This document shows positions 24-17,746 of a stretch of 40,096 nucleotides of DNA, piece after piece. Location of the stretch: IMG/VR virus record IMGVR_UViG_3300049459_000138, positions 1-40,096 of that record. One strand, 5' to 3'. The translations under genes were made by a program, and so were the position numbers. The notes under the pieces are model-generated. The model did not search any database and was not told the origin of the DNA. It saw nothing but the letters and a program-made list of their open reading frames with translations. Each line of letters starts with the position of its first letter. Position 1 is the first letter of the stretch. The stretch is from a virus.

Positions 24-1127
24 TTATGCCACGTCGATCCACTCTGCGCCTCGACTGTCGCGGTACAGGTCAGTCATTGAGGCCGAACGGTGACCGAGCA
101 GTTTCTGGGCATCGCGGCCTTCGACTTCGTGCAGGCGCGCGGCGAGCGACCGCTGTTCGTGAAAGGACGGTGGCTGGCGTCCGAAAGTTATCCCCAGCTT
201 CACGCCGGCTTTGTCCCTGGCTTCGGAAAACGCGGAGCTCAGCGTGTCCAGTACCACCGGTTGGCCAGCCTTGGCCCGTCCCGGCGCCTTTGCATGGTGC
301 ACCAGGTGTTGTGACAGAACGTTATCTCGGCATTGTTTGATGACTTGGGCCAAATCAAGATCAACCGACTCAAGTCGGATGGCGGTGCTGATCCGAAGCC
401 TGGCGCCGGTCTTGGACTGCACGACATGCAGGAAGCCGTCATGCACATCCTTGAACAGCATCGAGGCGATGTCGTCCCGCCGCTGGCCGGTAAGCACTGC
501 CAGTTCCATCGCCCTGCGCAGCCACGGCTTCGTGGCTTCCTCATAGATGGCCTTCCAAAGTTCCAGCGTCAGCCGCTCGCGCTTGATGTTCACCCGCGCC
601 GCCTTGGTCACCTCGACCGGGTTGGTGTCTGCCCAACCCCGCGCCTGAGCCTCGGCGAACACGTCTCGCAACAGCGAGCGCATCGCCCGGGCCATCTGCG
701 CCTTTCCCTCTTTGGCCATGCCTGTCAGGTAATCGGCCACATCCATCGTTGTGATTTCCTTAATCCCCTTTGAACCAAACACTGCAGCCAATCGATTTAT
801 CCGCATCCCCACGTTTTTGTTGCTGCTGGCGGACAGCTTGCGCTCGGCGAACAACTCGCGGTATTCGTCCAGCCATTCGGAGAACAGCTTGCCGGGAGCC
901 AACGCTGGTGTGCTGATGCGATCGGTGAGGGTTGGCTTGATGGTGTCGGCATGGTTCGCGGCGACGGCCTCGCGAATGGCCGCCTCCTTGTCCTTACCCA
1001 GACCGAACACGCGACCACTGATCGGGTCGCGGTACGTGTAATAGGTGACGCCGTTTCGGGCGTCGGTCTTGCGGTAGAGATTGGGCGGAAGATCCTTTGA
1101 CCCGGTATTACGCGGCCTGGGCGCCAT
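24..1127 (-). CDS. int: Lambda-type tyrosine recombinase (phage integrase)
   Basis: This 367-residue enzyme should catalyse site-specific integration of the phage at attP/attB and, with Xis, its excision. It aligns along its whole length with lambda Int as I remember it. The N-terminal arm-binding domain (about 1-65) carries the motif DLPPNLYRK. A core-binding SAM-like domain lies at about 80-175 and the catalytic domain at about 180-360. The catalytic residues are visible: R216 in TGQR, K239 in SKTG, H323 and R326 in FHEQR, H346 in LLGHRS and the nucleophile Y355 in DLYRDSRG. Lambda has FHELR, so the Gln at 325 is a small variation. The gene ends 23 bases from the window edge, so the attachment site is probably at or just beyond that edge. 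Its start overlaps xis by 20 bases, as in lambda. Confidence 0.97.
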   Translation of the reverse strand: MAPRPRNTGSKDLPPNLYRKTDARNGVTYYTYRDPISGRVFGLGKDKEAAIREAVAANHADTIKPTLTDRISTPALAPGKLFSEWLDEYRELFAERKLSASSNKNVGMRINRLAAVFGSKGIKEITTMDVADYLTGMAKEGKAQMARAMRSLLRDVFAEAQARGWADTNPVEVTKAARVNIKRERLTLELWKAIYEEATKPWLRRAMELAVLTGQRRDDIASMLFKDVHDGFLHVVQSKTGARLRISTAIRLESVDLDLAQVIKQCRDNVLSQHLVHHAKAPGRAKAGQPVVLDTLSSAFSEARDKAGVKLGITFGRQPPSFHEQRSLAARLHEVEGRDAQKLLGHRSASMTDLYRDSRGAEWIDVA

Positions 1128-1350
1128 TGCGTGCTCTCTCTATTCTGCTGATCAGGCTGCCGCCGACGATCCGGACTGGCTGCTGGTCAGGTTCTTGGTA
1201 GTGGGCGTCGGATTCTACATAGTAGTTGCGACCGTGCTTGACCGGTACCGGAGCGATCCGGCCTTCTCGCGCCCATTTGCGCAAGGTGTTGGCGCTGGGC
1301 GGAGTCTTGAACTCGGCTGCGGCCCATTCGTCCAGGGTGACTTTGCTCAT
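1108..1350 (-). CDS. xis: Lambda Xis-like excisionase
   Basis: The 80-residue product should be the recombination directionality factor that bends attR DNA and steers Int towards excision. It follows the lambda Xis pattern: an opening like VTLDEWAAAEF, then a winged-helix segment with SANTLRKWAREGRIAPVPVK and GRNYY, then a basic tail with RIERARNG. Lambda Xis is 72 residues, so the size fits. It lies immediately upstream of int in the same leftward operon and overlaps it by 20 bases, which is the usual coupled arrangement. Confidence 0.92.
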   Translation of the reverse strand: MSKVTLDEWAAAEFKTPPSANTLRKWAREGRIAPVPVKHGRNYYVESDAHYQEPDQQPVRIVGGSLISRIERARNGAQAA

Positions 1351-8240: not shown

Positions 8241-8271
8241 GACTGATCCCTCGGTGTGGGTTGCGTGTATT

Positions 8272-8326
8272 CGTCAGCACTCGGCCGCCTGCTGGTTGCC
8301 GTTGGGCGCAGGGGAGAGTGCTGACG
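8272..8326 (-). promoter_or_regulatory. Long leader hairpin upstream of the 7950-8240 gene
   Basis: CGTCAGCACTC (8272-8282) pairs perfectly with GAGTGCTGACG (8316-8326), an 11-pair outer stem. Inside, CCTGC and GCAGG can form a second stem. In the leftward transcript it lies about 30 bases before the ribosome site of the 96-residue protein. It could regulate translation or protect a processed 5' end. Its sequence is unrelated to the two repeated leader elements further upstream. Confidence 0.5.
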
Positions 8327-12502: not shown

Positions 12503-13207
12503 ATGAACACGATCGTCGCTCCAATCAATACGGTCACCATGTCGAGCCGTGAGATCGCCGATCTCACGGGCAAGCAGCACAAGGACGTCATCCGTGACAT
12601 CCGTGTGATGCGAAAGGCACTGGCAGGCGATGGCGCAGATCTGCGCCATCTCCAAGAGGTCAAGGATGGGCGGGATTACACAGCTGAATTCCACCTCGAC
12701 CGCGTCCTGACTGAAACCCTATTGACCGGCTACAGCATCCCGCTTCGTCATCGTGTCGTGACACGTTTGAGAGAATTGGAAAACGTGTCGCGACAGGTTG
12801 TCACGATTCCGCAATCCCTTCCCGAAGCGCTCCGCCTTGCCGCCGATCTGGCAGACAAGAACGATGAGTTGCAGAGACTGATTACAGACCAGGCGCCTAA
12901 GGTCGCGGCCATCAAACGGCTCGCAGCAGCTGGTGGCGCGATCTGCATCACCGATGCTGCCAAGCAGTTGGGTCTGGCTCCGGCACGTCTATTCGCTTGG
13001 TTGGAGCAGCACCGCTGGATATTCCGGCGGCATGGCGGAAAGCGCTGGGTTGCCTATCAGCCGCGCATCACCACCGGGCACATGACTCACAAGGTCACAG
13101 CGTTGAAGCCTGACCCAGAAACCGGGATTGAGCGCGCTGCATTCGATCCGATGGTTACCCCGAAAGGCCTTACACGTCTCGCTGAACTACTGCAGGAGGC
13201 CGCGTAA
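12503..13207 (+). CDS. Rha-type regulator with KilAC antirepressor domain
   Basis: The N-terminal 95 residues are the Rha family domain (TMSSREIADLTGKQHKDVIR, LTETLLTGYSIPLRHRVVTR). The C-terminal half is the phage antirepressor KilAC domain (DAAKQLGLAPARLFAWLEQH, WIFRRHGGKRW, VTPKGLTRLAELL). Rha affects phage growth in a host-factor-dependent way in lambdoid phages, and KilAC domains occur in antirepressors. The two-domain build is common. Its stop overlaps the ATG of the next gene by one base. Confidence 0.9.
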   Translation: MNTIVAPINTVTMSSREIADLTGKQHKDVIRDIRVMRKALAGDGADLRHLQEVKDGRDYTAEFHLDRVLTETLLTGYSIPLRHRVVTRLRELENVSRQVVTIPQSLPEALRLAADLADKNDELQRLITDQAPKVAAIKRLAAAGGAICITDAAKQLGLAPARLFAWLEQHRWIFRRHGGKRWVAYQPRITTGHMTHKVTALKPDPETGIERAAFDPMVTPKGLTRLAELLQEAA

Positions 13208-13956
13208 TGGCCGGCGACTGGATCAAATTCGAACTCACCACCCTGGATAAACCCGAGGTTTGTCAGATTGCCGACCTGGCCGATATCGACCCTGACGCGG
13301 TCGTCGGCAAGCTGATGCGTGTCTGGGGTTGGTTCGACCAACAAACCGAAAAAGGTAACGCTCCGAGCGTTAGTAAAAAGTTACTGGATCGTCTCGTCGG
13401 TGTTATCGGTTTCTGTGAGCACATGAAGTCGGTCGCTTGGATGATCGAACTCGACGGCGTGATCAGTCTTCCGCATTTCGACCGTCACAACGGGAAGACC
13501 GCTAAAAACAGGCTTCTCACGGCAAAGCGCGTAGCAAACCACAAGGCTAGTAACGGTAAAAGTAACGCTGCGAACGTTAGCGGTGCGTTACCTAAAGAAG
13601 ATGTAGAGAAGAATAAAGAACCTCTCTCTGCGCAGGCGCCTGTTGATCCTCGCATGCCCAACGAAATGACCCTCGACTGGGTGCCAGATGACACGCTGCT
13701 GAAAACCTACGCCTTGCACCGCGGGCTATCGCTGGACCTGTTCACCGAGGAAGTTCGCGTTGCATTCACTGCTCACTACGAACCTCAGCACCAGGTCAAC
13801 ACCCAGGCTGAATGGGTGGGCATGTTGGTCAAATGGGTCAACAACGACAAGGTCCGTTCCGCTGCCTCGAACGTGAAGCAGTTCAAGCCGAAGCAGGCGC
13901 CTGCATCCGACTTCGACGATGACGATACCGAATGGCAGAACGGGGTGAGGCCATGA
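13207..13956 (+). CDS. Phage replication initiator with DnaT-like C-terminal domain
   Basis: The 249-residue protein has an N-terminal winged-helix-like region (MAGDWIKFELTTLDKPEVCQ, LMRVWGWFDQQ, ISLPHFDRHNGKTAKNR), a polar linker (about 115-150), and a C-terminal DnaT-like ssDNA-binding region (TLDWVPDDTLLKTYALHRGL, WVGMLVKWVNND). It occupies the place of lambda gene O, just before a P-like gene, and should open the origin and help load the host helicase. The linker-coding DNA contains repeated dyads that look like an origin. It ends in an ATGA overlap with the P-like gene. Confidence 0.82.
   Translation: MAGDWIKFELTTLDKPEVCQIADLADIDPDAVVGKLMRVWGWFDQQTEKGNAPSVSKKLLDRLVGVIGFCEHMKSVAWMIELDGVISLPHFDRHNGKTAKNRLLTAKRVANHKASNGKSNAANVSGALPKEDVEKNKEPLSAQAPVDPRMPNEMTLDWVPDDTLLKTYALHRGLSLDLFTEEVRVAFTAHYEPQHQVNTQAEWVGMLVKWVNNDKVRSAASNVKQFKPKQAPASDFDDDDTEWQNGVRP
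13355..13625. other. Putative replication origin inside the initiator gene
   Basis: Two near-identical dyads, GTAACGCTCCGAGCGTTAG (13355-13373) and GTAACGCTGCGAACGTTAG (13562-13580), differ at two bases. Further GTAAC/GTTAC units occur at about 13380, 13550 and 13587. An A-rich stretch follows (about 13590-13620). Lambda has the same design: iterons and an AT-rich segment in the middle of gene O, encoding a protein linker. Confidence 0.6.
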
Positions 13957-14636
13957 AGACTGTCTCCGTGATTGCCCAAGACCTTTGGACGAAGGCCCAG
14001 TCAGGTGAGTTCATCGCTGCAAGCGACACTGTCACGGTCGCGAATGAAACCAACAGCACGTTGGTGGTTGCCATCAATGAGTTGTTCAAGGAACTGCGTT
14101 CGATCCGTTCCGCGTGGCGCCAGGCTTGGCCGGACCAAGAAACCTATCGCGCTTCCAAGCGGCAATGGTTCCAAGCGTTCCTCGAGGAGGGTATCTGCAC
14201 TCAAGGTCAGATCAATTTCGGAATGACCCAGGTGCGTAGGCAGCCCGGTGACTTCATCCCAAGCCCGGGCCAGTTCATCGAATGGTGCAAGCCAACCCCC
14301 GAAATGCTGGGCCTGCCGACGATTGCGGCCGCGCACCGGGAGGCATGCCGCAATGCATATCCGGGCATGGCAGGGCAGGGCAAGTGGTCGCACGACGCAG
14401 TCTGGCACACAGCCAAAGAGTGTGGCTTCGAAAGCCTGAACAAGCTCGATACAGCACTCAGCCTCAAGCTGTTCGAGCGGAATTACACCATCACCATTCG
14501 CCGCCTGCTAGCCGGCCTGCCACTCCAGTCGATGCCCAAGGCTCTGCCCGCGCACGCCGACGCGAAGGTGACCCCTGAAGTCGGCAAGGATGCCTTGGCT
14601 CAGATGCGCGCCAAGCTGGGAGGTGTCCGTGGCTGA
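13953..14636 (+). CDS. Lambda P-like replication protein (helicase loader)
   Basis: I choose the ATG at 13953 (227 residues), which overlaps the upstream stop as ATGA; an ATG at 13932 is also in frame. The protein fits the phage replication protein P family: LVVAINELFKELRSIRSAWR, the QWFQAFLEEGI segment, FIPSPGQFIEWCKP, and a C-terminal part rich in helices. Lambda P takes DnaB helicase from the host and delivers it to the origin-bound initiator. Its place directly after the initiator gene supports the same job here. Confidence 0.88.
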   Translation: MKTVSVIAQDLWTKAQSGEFIAASDTVTVANETNSTLVVAINELFKELRSIRSAWRQAWPDQETYRASKRQWFQAFLEEGICTQGQINFGMTQVRRQPGDFIPSPGQFIEWCKPTPEMLGLPTIAAAHREACRNAYPGMAGQGKWSHDAVWHTAKECGFESLNKLDTALSLKLFERNYTITIRRLLAGLPLQSMPKALPAHADAKVTPEVGKDALAQMRAKLGGVRG

Positions 14637-14832: not shown

Positions 14833-14960
14833 CTGCCTACCTGAGCGAATACCTGATTCACGTGTACCTCGGATTCATGCTGATTGCCGCCGGTGGTCTT
14901 TTGTGGGCGATACGCCGCCTTGAGAGCCGCGCCCGGATCTCCCGAGGGAATCGCGAATGA
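14829..14960 (+). CDS. Small single-span membrane protein (43 aa)
   Basis: The product runs MTAYLSEYLIHVYLGFML, then IAAGGLLWAIRRLESRARIS. That is one transmembrane helix (about residues 8-30) followed by a basic tail, with the N-terminus predicted outside. Both ends are stop-start overlaps (ATGA) with neighbouring genes. The function is unknown. Confidence 0.65.
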   Translation: MTAYLSEYLIHVYLGFMLIAAGGLLWAIRRLESRARISRGNRE

Positions 14961-15388
14961 AGCCGGCCGCCATGAAGCTGTTCAAGCAGAAGCCCGTGCG
15001 GGCCAAATCAATCGACCGCGAAGGCCTTGAGCAGGCAGCGTTGATCGCCGAGCTTCGCGTCCGCATGCCGGAAGTCGCCGACCTGATCTATCACGTCCCC
15101 AACGGCGGCCATCGACTCAAGTCAGTGGCGGTAAAACTGAAGCAACAGGGCGTGGTCGCCGGCATTCCTGACCTGGTGCTGACCATGGCGCGTGGTGGAT
15201 TTTTCGGACTGTACATCGAGTTCAAGGCAACACCACCGAACGATGCCGCGATCTCGGCAAGCCAGCATGAGCGTATCCGCAAACTCAATGACCAGGGCTA
15301 TCTCGCCATGGTTTGCCGCGGGCACTTCGATGCGATGGAGCAGATCCGCGCCTACTTGCGCTTGGCACCGACTTCGGTGGTCGCATGA
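14957..15388 (+). CDS. VRR-NUC domain nuclease
   Basis: The 143-residue protein is a minimal VRR-NUC (PD-(D/E)xK type) nuclease. HVPNGGHR (46-53) and the GIPDLVL segment with D72 are followed by LYIEFKA with E88 and K90. Later comes SQHERIRKLNDQGY, the usual QxxxxxxLxxxGY helix. Family members process branched or structured DNA; in phages they sit in replication operons and may resolve junctions. It starts in an ATGA overlap with the membrane protein and ends in one with the second recombinase. Confidence 0.9.
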   Translation: MKPAAMKLFKQKPVRAKSIDREGLEQAALIAELRVRMPEVADLIYHVPNGGHRLKSVAVKLKQQGVVAGIPDLVLTMARGGFFGLYIEFKATPPNDAAISASQHERIRKLNDQGYLAMVCRGHFDAMEQIRAYLRLAPTSVVA

Positions 15389-16665
15389 GCAGTGCTGCCG
15401 TGAAGATCACCGACGCCGAGATCAAGCGCCAGGCCGCCGGCGATGTCCGCGATCTGCGAGACACCGAGAATCGCGGGCTGTACCTGCGCTTCAATAAAGA
15501 CCGTGCCCGTCCGTCCTGGTATCTGGTAATCAAGCGAGCGTGGAACCTCATCGGTAATTACCCCGACCTCAACGCCAAGCAGGTCGTGGCGGCGCTCCCA
15601 GCCACCCGGCTACGTGTTGCGGCTGGAGAGGGGTCTACTCTTTCGAAGTGGGTCACCACCGGCGAGCTTTTGGGCTGGTACGGCGAGCGCATGGCCCGCG
15701 ACCGCAACCTGTCCAGCAAGCGCAAGAAGACCGGTGCCTCGGCCATCAAGTGCCACCTGATTCCGCGCCTTGGTCGCCTGCCGCTGACCCAGATCGACAA
15801 AGCAACTCTCGACAGCCAACTCATGTGGCCGTTGCAAGAAAGCATCTCCATCGACTACGTGCGGCTGGTGTTCCAGTTGCTGGCCCTGGCCTTTCGTCAG
15901 GCGTTCAAGCTGGGTCTGATTTCGTCCAACCCGATGGCCGCCATCAAGTTCAGCGACTTCTCCAAGGCCAAGGTCGGGATCAAGCCGTCCAGGCTGCGGG
16001 TTGTTCAGTTGCAGGACCTGCTCAAGCAATTGCTCAACGTGATCCTGCTCAATCCGTCCGAAGGCATGCTCGCCCTGATGATGCTGTGCCACGGCACGCG
16101 CATCGGCGAAACCCGGCAGGCGCGCTGGTCGCACATCAGCCTAGCCGAGCGTGAGTGGTTCATCCCGGGTGAGCACACCAAGACCGGTGTCGAGCATCAC
16201 CTGCCGTTGACCGACCAGGTGCGCAAGCTGTTGATCCGGTACCGCGAGATCCAGCAGGCCAAAGGGTACGACGGCCAGTTCCTCTTTCCATCCCGCAATG
16301 GCAAGGCACTCAGCGAAGGCCAGGCCAGCGCCGTATTCGCCAAGTTGGGGCAGGGCGAGTGGACCAGCCACGACCTACGCAAAGTGGCTCGAACTGGTTG
16401 GGCAGACATCGGCATCGACCACCTGATCGGCGAGCTGCTGATCAACCACGCGATGGGCCACAACGTGAAGGTGTACATCCAGTCGGACGTGATGAGCCGC
16501 AAGCGTGACGCCCTCGAGAGGTGGCACGCCCATCTAGACGAGCGTGGGTTTGACCTAATTCACGGGTTGACCGGCGTTAGATTCGGAGATTCCGGTAATG
16601 CGCTGGAAGCCACGGAACATAAGGCCTGCGAGGCCATTGAAGAATCAACCATAGGCGAGGTTTAA
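15385..16665 (+). CDS. Second tyrosine recombinase, in the replication operon
   Basis: The start at 15385 (426 residues) overlaps the VRR-NUC stop as ATGA. The catalytic domain is complete: R239 in HGTRIGE, K266 in HTKTG, H329 and R332 in SHDLRK, H355 in INHAMGH and the nucleophile Y364 in VKVYIQS. The N-terminal 90 residues resemble the P4-type integrase arm domain (LRDTENRGLYLRFNK, SWYLVIKRAW). It is not closely related to the lambda-type Int at the left end and is not next to an attachment site. Possible jobs are genome dimer resolution, a regulatory inversion, or an alternative integration system. Confidence 0.9.
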   Translation: MSSAAVKITDAEIKRQAAGDVRDLRDTENRGLYLRFNKDRARPSWYLVIKRAWNLIGNYPDLNAKQVVAALPATRLRVAAGEGSTLSKWVTTGELLGWYGERMARDRNLSSKRKKTGASAIKCHLIPRLGRLPLTQIDKATLDSQLMWPLQESISIDYVRLVFQLLALAFRQAFKLGLISSNPMAAIKFSDFSKAKVGIKPSRLRVVQLQDLLKQLLNVILLNPSEGMLALMMLCHGTRIGETRQARWSHISLAEREWFIPGEHTKTGVEHHLPLTDQVRKLLIRYREIQQAKGYDGQFLFPSRNGKALSEGQASAVFAKLGQGEWTSHDLRKVARTGWADIGIDHLIGELLINHAMGHNVKVYIQSDVMSRKRDALERWHAHLDERGFDLIHGLTGVRFGDSGNALEATEHKACEAIEESTIGEV

Positions 16666-16667
16666 AA

Positions 16668-16862
16668 ATGATGAATCAGGACCTTTTTAAGCCGAGCATC
16701 AGCCTCTGGCAGCACTACGTCACCATCCTCAGTGTCGGCGGCATGGGCGTGGCGATCTCTTTCAATTCGGGATGGGTCGCAACTATCGTCGTGGCTACGT
16801 TCTTTGTCGCTGCCGTTGTTGAGGGCTTCGCCGATGCTCGCCAGGGTCGTGAACGCCAATGA
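16668..16862 (+). CDS. Small membrane protein (64 aa)
   Basis: Two hydrophobic segments are visible (about residues 17-31, YVTILSVGGMGVAISF, and 36-53, WVATIVVATFFVAAVVEGF), with a charged C-terminal tail ARQGRERQ. GAGG seven bases upstream supports the start. The stop overlaps the next ATG (ATGA). The function is unknown. It is not in the usual holin position. Confidence 0.7.
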   Translation: MMNQDLFKPSISLWQHYVTILSVGGMGVAISFNSGWVATIVVATFFVAAVVEGFADARQGRERQ

Positions 16863-17173
16863 AGAAGCTCCACGGATCACTCCAGAAGCGCGAGCTGAAG
16901 TTCATCGTCGAATGCAGCATCTGTCTCGGGAAGGGCGAACGGCTCGGGCTTTTCCACTATCTCGAGTGCGAGCACTGCCTGGGATCGGGCTGGGTCTGCG
17001 GCCACACGCTCCAGACTCTGCCGTTGAGTGACGTTGTGCCGGTACTCAATGCGCGCTTGAAAGACGCGCTCACCGAGATCGCCAAGGCCCGCCATGTCAT
17101 CGGCGGTGCCCAGCAGCAATACGAACAGAACAACCGTCGCGGTGCCGGCGGATCGAACTTCACTGGGGATTGA
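16859..17173 (+). CDS. DnaJ-type zinc-finger phage protein
   Basis: Two CxxCxGxG motifs are present, CSICLGKG and CEHCLGSG, about 20 residues apart, with a further C and H in WVCGHTL. This is the zinc-binding pattern of the DnaJ central domain, here in a 104-residue protein without a J domain. The C-terminal half is helical and polar. Small proteins of this kind precede the antiterminator gene in many Pseudomonas and enterobacterial phages; their role is unknown. Confidence 0.75.
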   Translation: MKKLHGSLQKRELKFIVECSICLGKGERLGLFHYLECEHCLGSGWVCGHTLQTLPLSDVVPVLNARLKDALTEIAKARHVIGGAQQQYEQNNRRGAGGSNFTGD

Positions 17174-17182
17174 GGGAACGCC

Positions 17183-17746
17183 ATGGGCATCTACAAAGAC
17201 GTAATGGGCACACTGGTCCGGGTACTGGCCGCCGACAACATCGACAACAGCACCAAGCAAAGCTGGCAGAAGCTGATCGATGCCGACCTTCGCCAGGGCG
17301 GTACCGGCAGTTCATTGTCAGTGCGCGACAAGTTTGATTACGACTGCTGCCTCTACGCGCTCCTGCACCGTCAGCTTGAGCCAGCCCAGTGGGATGTGCT
17401 GGTCGCCAAGTACTCGACACACAAGGCCAACAAGGTCGCCGCCATCGGGCGCCTGGTGGGCCGCGTGGTTTCCCCAGCCCCACAACTGTTCATCTATAAG
17501 GCGCTCACTGCGTGGGCCATTCCAAAGCTGAAGGGCGTCGAGACTGGTAAGCGATCCACCGACATGATCGTGCTACCGGCGGAGTTCTACGACATGAACA
17601 CCTGGGACACGGAAGGCAAGCCAGAGCGCACTCGGCGTGATTGGAGGGCAGGCATCCATAAGCGCCTGGAGGCGCTGGAGGAAGCTGCGGTAGTGCATGC
17701 GACTGAGATCTTCGATCGTGAAGAAATCTTCCTTGATGCCGCTTGA
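17183..17746 (+). CDS. Putative late-gene antiterminator (Q position)
   Basis: The 187-residue protein has a helical N-terminus (GTLVRVLAADNIDNSTKQSW), then KFDYDCCLYALLHRQLEPAQ, WDVLVAKYSTH and AAIGRLVGRV, a layout reminiscent of the helical core of phage Q-type antiterminators. I cannot confirm the family from sequence memory. The context is strong: it is the last gene of the early right operon, and directly after its stop lies a promoter with two terminators, exactly the lambda Q/pR'/tR' design. If correct, it lets RNA polymerase read through the terminators of the late operon. Confidence 0.55.
   Translation: MGIYKDVMGTLVRVLAADNIDNSTKQSWQKLIDADLRQGGTGSSLSVRDKFDYDCCLYALLHRQLEPAQWDVLVAKYSTHKANKVAAIGRLVGRVVSPAPQLFIYKALTAWAIPKLKGVETGKRSTDMIVLPAEFYDMNTWDTEGKPERTRRDWRAGIHKRLEALEEAAVVHATEIFDREEIFLDAA

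Follow-up and report, generated by a model that had tools for sequence, protein, structure and literature searches.

A conserved tyrosine recombinase in the replication operon of lambda-like Pseudomonas phages is related to phage-plasmid recombinases and does not co-occur with NinG

Introduction

The virus record analysed here, a stretch of 40,096 bases that we refer to as the window, belongs to a temperate phage of lambda-like type, and all of its relatives are from Pseudomonas. It encodes a terminal prophage integrase (Int) and, in the middle of its replication operon, a second tyrosine recombinase, called REC here and labelled 'integrase' in the databases. We find that REC is a conserved, mislabelled recombinase of a known superfamily, unusual in its slot and in its proposed role. 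A preliminary description made from the sequence had already drawn attention to this gene; the probable descent of REC from phage-plasmid recombinases and its exclusion with NinG and NinB are additions to that earlier reading.

REC is a complete and conserved recombinase within the replication operon

REC is encoded on the plus strand at 15385..16665, from an ATG at 15385 to a TAA stop at 16663-16665, and its 426 residues include the complete R-K-H-R-H-Y catalytic set (R239, K266, H329, R332, H355 and the nucleophile Y364, encoded by nt 16474-16476), which together with a match to PF00589 (Phage_integrase, E 1.1e-18) places it in the tyrosine recombinase superfamily. None of the six residues varies among the 131 aligned homologues, and the earlier statement that this is a complete enzyme is borne out. 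The same description had called REC P4-like; a resemblance to Arm-DNA-bind_3 is indeed present (E 5e-4), but because it scores 20.6 bits against a Pfam cut-off of 27, P4-like stands as a resemblance and not as a clean assignment. The predicted structure (pTM 0.48, with a usable domain order and weak inter-domain confidence) has an arm-binding-like domain (residues ~1-80), a core-binding domain (residues ~92-192) and a catalytic domain (residues ~206-385), followed by a C-terminal tail of low confidence (residues 396-426). When this model was used in a structure search the top match was full-length lambda Int, followed by Tn1549 Int, XerA, XerH and Cre, and as the TM-scores of the full-length matches were low we take only the domain order and the superfamily from this search.

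The operon that contains REC runs from a CII-like protein and an antirepressor (Rha/KilAC) through a DnaT-like replication initiation protein (13207..13956, plus strand; PF17948, phrog_2509), a lambda P-like helicase loader (13932..14636, plus strand; PF06992) and a VRR-NUC nuclease of 143 aa (14957..15388, plus strand; PF08774 E 9e-10, phrog_824) to REC, and continues with a small membrane protein (16668..16862, plus strand; phrog_29843), a phrog_5085 protein (16859..17173, plus strand) and a phrog_3412 protein (17183..17746, plus strand), after which come a holin and then a P27-type small and an HK97-type large terminase. The start of REC and the stop of VRR-NUC overlap as ATGA at 15385-15388. 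Both the stop-start coupling and the location inside the replication operon had been claimed for REC and are upheld, and this position likewise supports the view that REC would be expressed early in lytic growth. The helicase loader forms the upstream boundary of the nin slot and the phrog_3412 gene its downstream boundary, with the late-antiterminator (Q) role of the latter suggested by its position and by the annotation of the same slot in PseuP_224. The small membrane protein encoded directly 3' of REC is not conserved in relatives, and the phrog_5085 protein, of a CxxC type that appears DnaJ-zinc-finger-like by eye, is the downstream neighbour in most of them.

A scan of viral contigs returned 415 REC relatives; the 80 best among them (79-85% identity) were retained. 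A scan of genomes returned 47 loci with REC relatives, all in Pseudomonas. Synteny is near-fixed across ~80 contigs, in the order P or DnaB, VRR-NUC where present, REC, phrog_5085 and the Q-like gene. The replication genes upstream range from >90% identity to undetectable, with a DnaB-type helicase sometimes found instead, and across relatives the conservation of REC exceeds that of its neighbours. Furthermore, the median dN/dS against the window REC is ~0.17, indicating purifying selection, and beyond the 131 aligned homologues there is one further locus only with an internal stop or ambiguous bases. Taken together, the invariant catalytic set, this dN/dS and the near-fixed gene order show that REC is neither a chance occurrence nor a remnant, and they contradict the possibility, raised at the outset, that it is a degraded gene in all relatives.

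REC and the terminal Int

Int (24..1127, minus strand) belongs to the lambda arm-binding type (PF09003, E 3e-25, together with PF00589) and thus differs from REC, as had been described, and it is adjoined by an excisionase (1108..1350, minus strand; phrog_629). No excisionase is found beside REC and no lox-like palindrome within 300 bp of it is shared, in agreement with the earlier remark that an attachment site and an excisionase are missing from its surroundings. Of the 28 long contigs of REC phages, among them the window, 27 have a second, terminal PF00589 recombinase, and the exception (G003) is a contig that begins 9.8 kb upstream of REC and has its left part missing. Two PF00589 recombinases are also present in the named phages PseuP_224, Solano, VW-6S and SC_8.

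With P4- and lambda-type integrases REC has arm, core-binding and catalytic domains in common. It differs from them in that it is mid-operon in all relatives and never terminal, has no adjoining excisionase and, by the palindrome scan, no adjoining att-like site, is not the sole recombinase able to integrate, and stands apart from the terminal Ints of its own phages in a maximum-likelihood tree, where the REC clade (support 99/99) contains no terminal Int. The separate terminal Int and the separation in the tree contradict the alternative that REC is the true integrase, and these comparisons point to a putative phage-DNA recombinase distinct from Int, not to the prophage integrase.

REC and NinG do not occur together

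The lambda genes orf (ninB) and rap (ninG) are situated between P and Q, orf being always ahead of a junction resolvase gene (PMC4118853), and standalone phage VRR-Nuc proteins are dimeric and cut four-way junctions (PMC4103454). REC likewise lies between the helicase loader P (or DnaB) and Q, and a Holliday-junction nuclease is present by homology in the form of VRR-NUC; neither NinB/Orf nor NinG/Rap is part of the cassette in genomes with REC.

A comparison comes from 43 long Pseudomonas-type phage contigs, the ones bearing a candidate-site palindrome described below and picked regardless of REC or NinG, of which 15 have REC and 28 do not, with G064 and its weak 24% match counted among the latter. 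NinG (Rap) was detected in 0/15 contigs with REC vs 26/28 without (Fisher p 9e-10, a descriptive value only, since one shared slot and common descent may partly cause the exclusion and p-values therefore overstate independence), and over all genomes tested the corresponding figures were 0/54 and 26/28. NinB-like matches at E 1e-3, mostly weak and with 5 passing the Pfam cut-off, were found in 0/23 genomes with REC vs 22/27 without. VRR-NUC was present in 20/23 vs 0/27, and in the 3/23 REC genomes where VRR-NUC is absent NinG is absent too. A detailed look at six relatives without REC showed NinG downstream of the antirepressor and replication genes, with a NinB-like match in five, and in two of the six NinG is directly 5' of the phrog_3412 gene, in the slot held by REC elsewhere.

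The same alternation can be read from the accessible part of a published comparison, in which PseuP_222 has NinB and NinG while its sister PseuP_224 has a 'site-specific phage integrase' in the replication cluster; this protein is 72% identical to REC and occupies the same slot, and that part of the paper proposes neither a function nor mutual exclusion for the gene (PMC10305613). REC has the P-Q slot in common with lambda orf and rap, which adjoin a Holliday-junction nuclease or are replaced by one, but the protein families differ, and Orf and Rap act on homologous-recombination intermediates whereas REC should need a specific site. The VRR-NUC and REC cassette would work like the lambda cassette but is not that cassette.

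REC is related to the recombinases of phage-plasmids

A REC homologue is the sole PF00589 protein in seven plasmid-type phages or phage-plasmids (those of P. aeruginosa, Delftia, P. lundensis, Halomonas and Vibrio, together with PARCL1pr and VPHZ6), and ParA is annotated in most of these. The Vibrio vulnificus plasmid NC_025128 (~79 kb), which we take to be pVv01, also encodes a REC homologue. REC falls in one clade (99/99) with these recombinases of circular phage-plasmids (pVv01 and elements of Vibrio, Pseudomonas, Delftia and Halomonas) at 37-47% identity, and they have the same three domains and the same slot, between the early genes and holin/terminase. The phage-plasmids differ from the window phage in encoding ParA or ParM and no other tyrosine recombinase, whereas the window phage has a separate Int and Xis. 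The window REC, unlike its phage-plasmid homologues, is also coupled to VRR-NUC and follows DnaT and P.

Inside this clade the RECs of integrating phages group together as one nested clade (100/97), the phage-plasmid recombinases being arranged as a grade. Because of this nesting REC most likely came from phage-plasmids, a direction that depends on the rooting of a tree in which several outgroup branches are long. Tyrosine recombinases encoded by circular plasmid prophages, among them that of pVv01, are believed to act as dimer resolvases (PMC8026635). Homologues at 30-34% identity were also found in the small Vibrio podophages 1.179.O (L329) and CKB-S2 (L332), in both of which all annotated genes are on one strand, the homologue is just 5' of the terminase genes and no second recombinase is annotated. 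These podophage homologues are labelled 'integrase' with no other obvious lysogeny gene, and 1.179.O also codes for a DnaJ-type cysteine-rich protein.

Search for a recombination site

A core site bound by the protein, which the preliminary description had put forward as something to look for, was sought with palindrome, lox-geometry and k-mer scans and by comparison with the phage-plasmids, and none of these gave a site tied to REC. Among 10 relatives no lox-like palindrome (11-bp arms, at most 2 mismatches, spacer 4-12) was shared within 300 bp of REC, and 24-mer and 16-mer conservation scans outside REC yielded operator-like elements, leader elements and terminators, with no element present in all genomes with REC. 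A clade-wide lox-geometry scan brought up a 38-bp palindrome, CGACAC-N-TTTT-N8..10-AAAA-N-GTGTCG, with 12-13-bp arms and an 8-bp spacer. This was rejected as the REC site because its co-occurrence with REC fails: 27 of 43 long phages bearing it are without REC and a 28th (G064) has the weak 24% match, and it is missing from three REC phages (G023, G024 and G027). Also rejected were the conserved non-coding DNA of Pseudomonas phage-plasmids, which consists of AT-rich repeats near parA that are more likely partition or replication sites, and a hairpin near the REC stop (AAGGCC-TGCGA-GGCC), the stem of which is not kept in many distinct sequences. A search against Rfam returned no match. For DNA inversion, a reading also set aside, the match to a tyrosine-type invertase model was below the cut-off.

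The last ~40 codons of REC, encoding the low-confidence tail, carry the strongest synonymous constraint in the gene (codons ~390-426; 16537..16669, plus strand). This 3' end includes a Shine-Dalgarno-like AGGCGAGG and the ATG of the next gene, and part of the constraint is explained by the ribosome-binding site of that gene. Elsewhere in the 3' end the rare codons ACA and AGA/GGA (GACA-N7-RGA) recur in several distant homologues, and as a lead to a recombination site the stretch is suggestive only. In addition, an invariant ACCATAGGCGAGGTTTAAAAATG in the 3' end overlaps the start of any following gene.

Proposed role of REC and alternatives

On the comparisons above, the probable target of REC is the DNA of the phage itself as it multiplies, and insertion of the phage into the host is probably not its task. 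The reading we favour, and regard as reasonably likely, is that a former phage-plasmid resolvase and a Holliday-junction-type nuclease form an alternative nin-region cassette that acts on multimeric phage DNA during lytic growth. The single tyrosine recombinase of circular phage-plasmids would have become the REC of integrating Pseudomonas phages, and VRR-NUC and REC, both presumably produced early in lytic growth, would replace NinB/NinG between P and Q. VRR-NUC would then cut branched replication or recombination intermediates, and REC, by means of its three domains and Tyr364, would recombine copies of one phage-borne site with each other in a site-specific manner, its likely substrate being dimeric or multimeric phage circles, with the DNA staying replicable and packageable. 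Catalytic activity, substrate and the direction and outcome of the reaction, be it resolution, multimer formation or junction processing, are here predictions from sequence. The earlier reading is supported in part, with dimer or concatemer resolution a putative activity. A simple recombinase given a dimer will by default resolve it, and on the simplest reading this activity would have been taken over with the enzyme. A more specific version, in which the nuclease and a recombinase derived from phage-plasmids replace NinB/NinG and the REC site lies within the 3' end of REC itself, where constraint on the codons acts on the DNA, seems quite unlikely.

An analogy is Cre of P1, which belongs to the same fold family (Foldseek E ~5e-4) and has a job like the one proposed for REC, the control of multimers of circular phage DNA. 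Cre is not, however, a sequence homologue of REC at the family level and is without an arm-binding domain, and REC is without a lox-like site in our scans.

Against a resolvase, the scans gave no site tied to REC, and the one strong lox-shaped element shows no linkage to it. The operon that holds REC, and that of its phage-plasmid homologues, also points away from the repressor and ParA, an unexpected orientation for a resolvase of the lysogeny phase. Moreover, the terminases look cos-type by family (HK97-like or GpA-like, by homology), and as packaging in cos phages requires multimers, wholesale resolution would be costly and multimer formation is possible instead. REC could accordingly fuse monomer circles in lytic growth so that a cos-type terminase finds two cos sites, the corresponding job in lambda being done by Chi/RecA- or Red-promoted exchange. 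This is a live rival because REC sits in the lytic operon even in phage-plasmids, as it does in integrating phages, and it would also fit the terminase families, the exclusion of REC with NinG/NinB, a recombination-promoting pair, and the lack of any known annealing recombinase in the scanned part of the left operon. We nevertheless consider it unlikely, since without some bias a simple site-specific recombinase tends to resolve intramolecularly, the scans gave no site, and concatemers would already be supplied by rolling-circle replication.

Cre keeps P1 circles monomeric, and REC might do the same if its phages also persist as circles, with lytic expression being incidental. Its ancestry among phage-plasmid recombinases and the dimer resolution ascribed to such enzymes (PMC8026635) point this way, but in every phage-plasmid inspected the REC operon is directed away from the repressor, Int and Xis are both encoded by the window phage, and no ParA was seen among those of its genes that were scanned, so that we consider such a role very unlikely. 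It is highly improbable that REC is a second or alternative integrase, serving another chromosomal site or prophage-prophage recombination: despite the 'integrase' label, the arm-binding-like domain and the overall likeness to P4- and lambda-type integrases, a terminal Int accompanies it in 27/28 long contigs, REC itself is never terminal and has neither excisionase nor att-like site (palindrome scan, 300 bp), and extrachromosomal phage-plasmids have its homologue as their one tyrosine recombinase. Finally, that REC is a hitch-hiker kept only through translational coupling in the P-to-Q block, with VRR-NUC replacing NinG and causing the exclusion, would suit the start-stop coupling and the 20/23 genomes in which VRR-NUC accounts for the missing NinG, but can be given hardly any weight as REC persists without VRR-NUC in 3/23, where NinG is absent too, has an invariant active site and a dN/dS of ~0.17, and is better conserved than its neighbours.

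If REC replaces NinG/NinB, as in the cassette we favour, nin-type recombination genes are replaceable in lytic growth by site-specific exchange, and a phage-plasmid maintenance gene has been taken over by integrating phages. The clean dichotomy of REC and NinG among otherwise similar phages offers a natural comparison for working out what purpose the nin-region recombination genes serve. The 'integrase' label on hundreds of Pseudomonas prophage contigs, meanwhile, misleads prophage typing and studies of integration sites.

Additional observations

The 82-kb Pseudomonas plasmid pHN2 (NZ_CP085886.1; L340 and L341) consists of two near-identical head-to-tail 41-kb copies of a REC phage-plasmid that are ~0.5 kb apart in length, and this double copy, which could be a natural dimer or an assembly artefact, was left out of the evidence used here. 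Repeats built on TTAGCTAAT are present at 1625, 33383, 33831 and 33959 of L340, near parA and in a non-coding stretch; they match P. aeruginosa phage-plasmid DNA and are possible centromere or replication iterons.

A phage-borne palindrome, TCGYGACAC-N-TTT-N10..12-AAA-N-GTGTCRCGA, is located at 12756-12793 of the window and has copies in relatives. It is set within coding contexts that are not homologous (Ant codon 85, or ~codons 13-20 of the post-CII gene), often accompanied by another copy in a ~121-aa gene that runs leftward; the exact pattern is missing from 8/10 whole Pseudomonas genomes. The single copy in each early operon is suggestive of a control element resembling nut, pRE/pI or an operator. 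Likewise, short palindromic or hairpin-like elements lie just 5' of the start codons of leftward early genes at 1360, 2656, 5278, 8257-8319 and 9502 of the window, examples being GCCGCTATAGCGGC, GCCGCCACGCGCGGC and a pair of arms, GTCAGCAC and GTGCTGAC, ~33 bp apart, and these elements are kept in 14-18 of 23 phages while their flanks are not.
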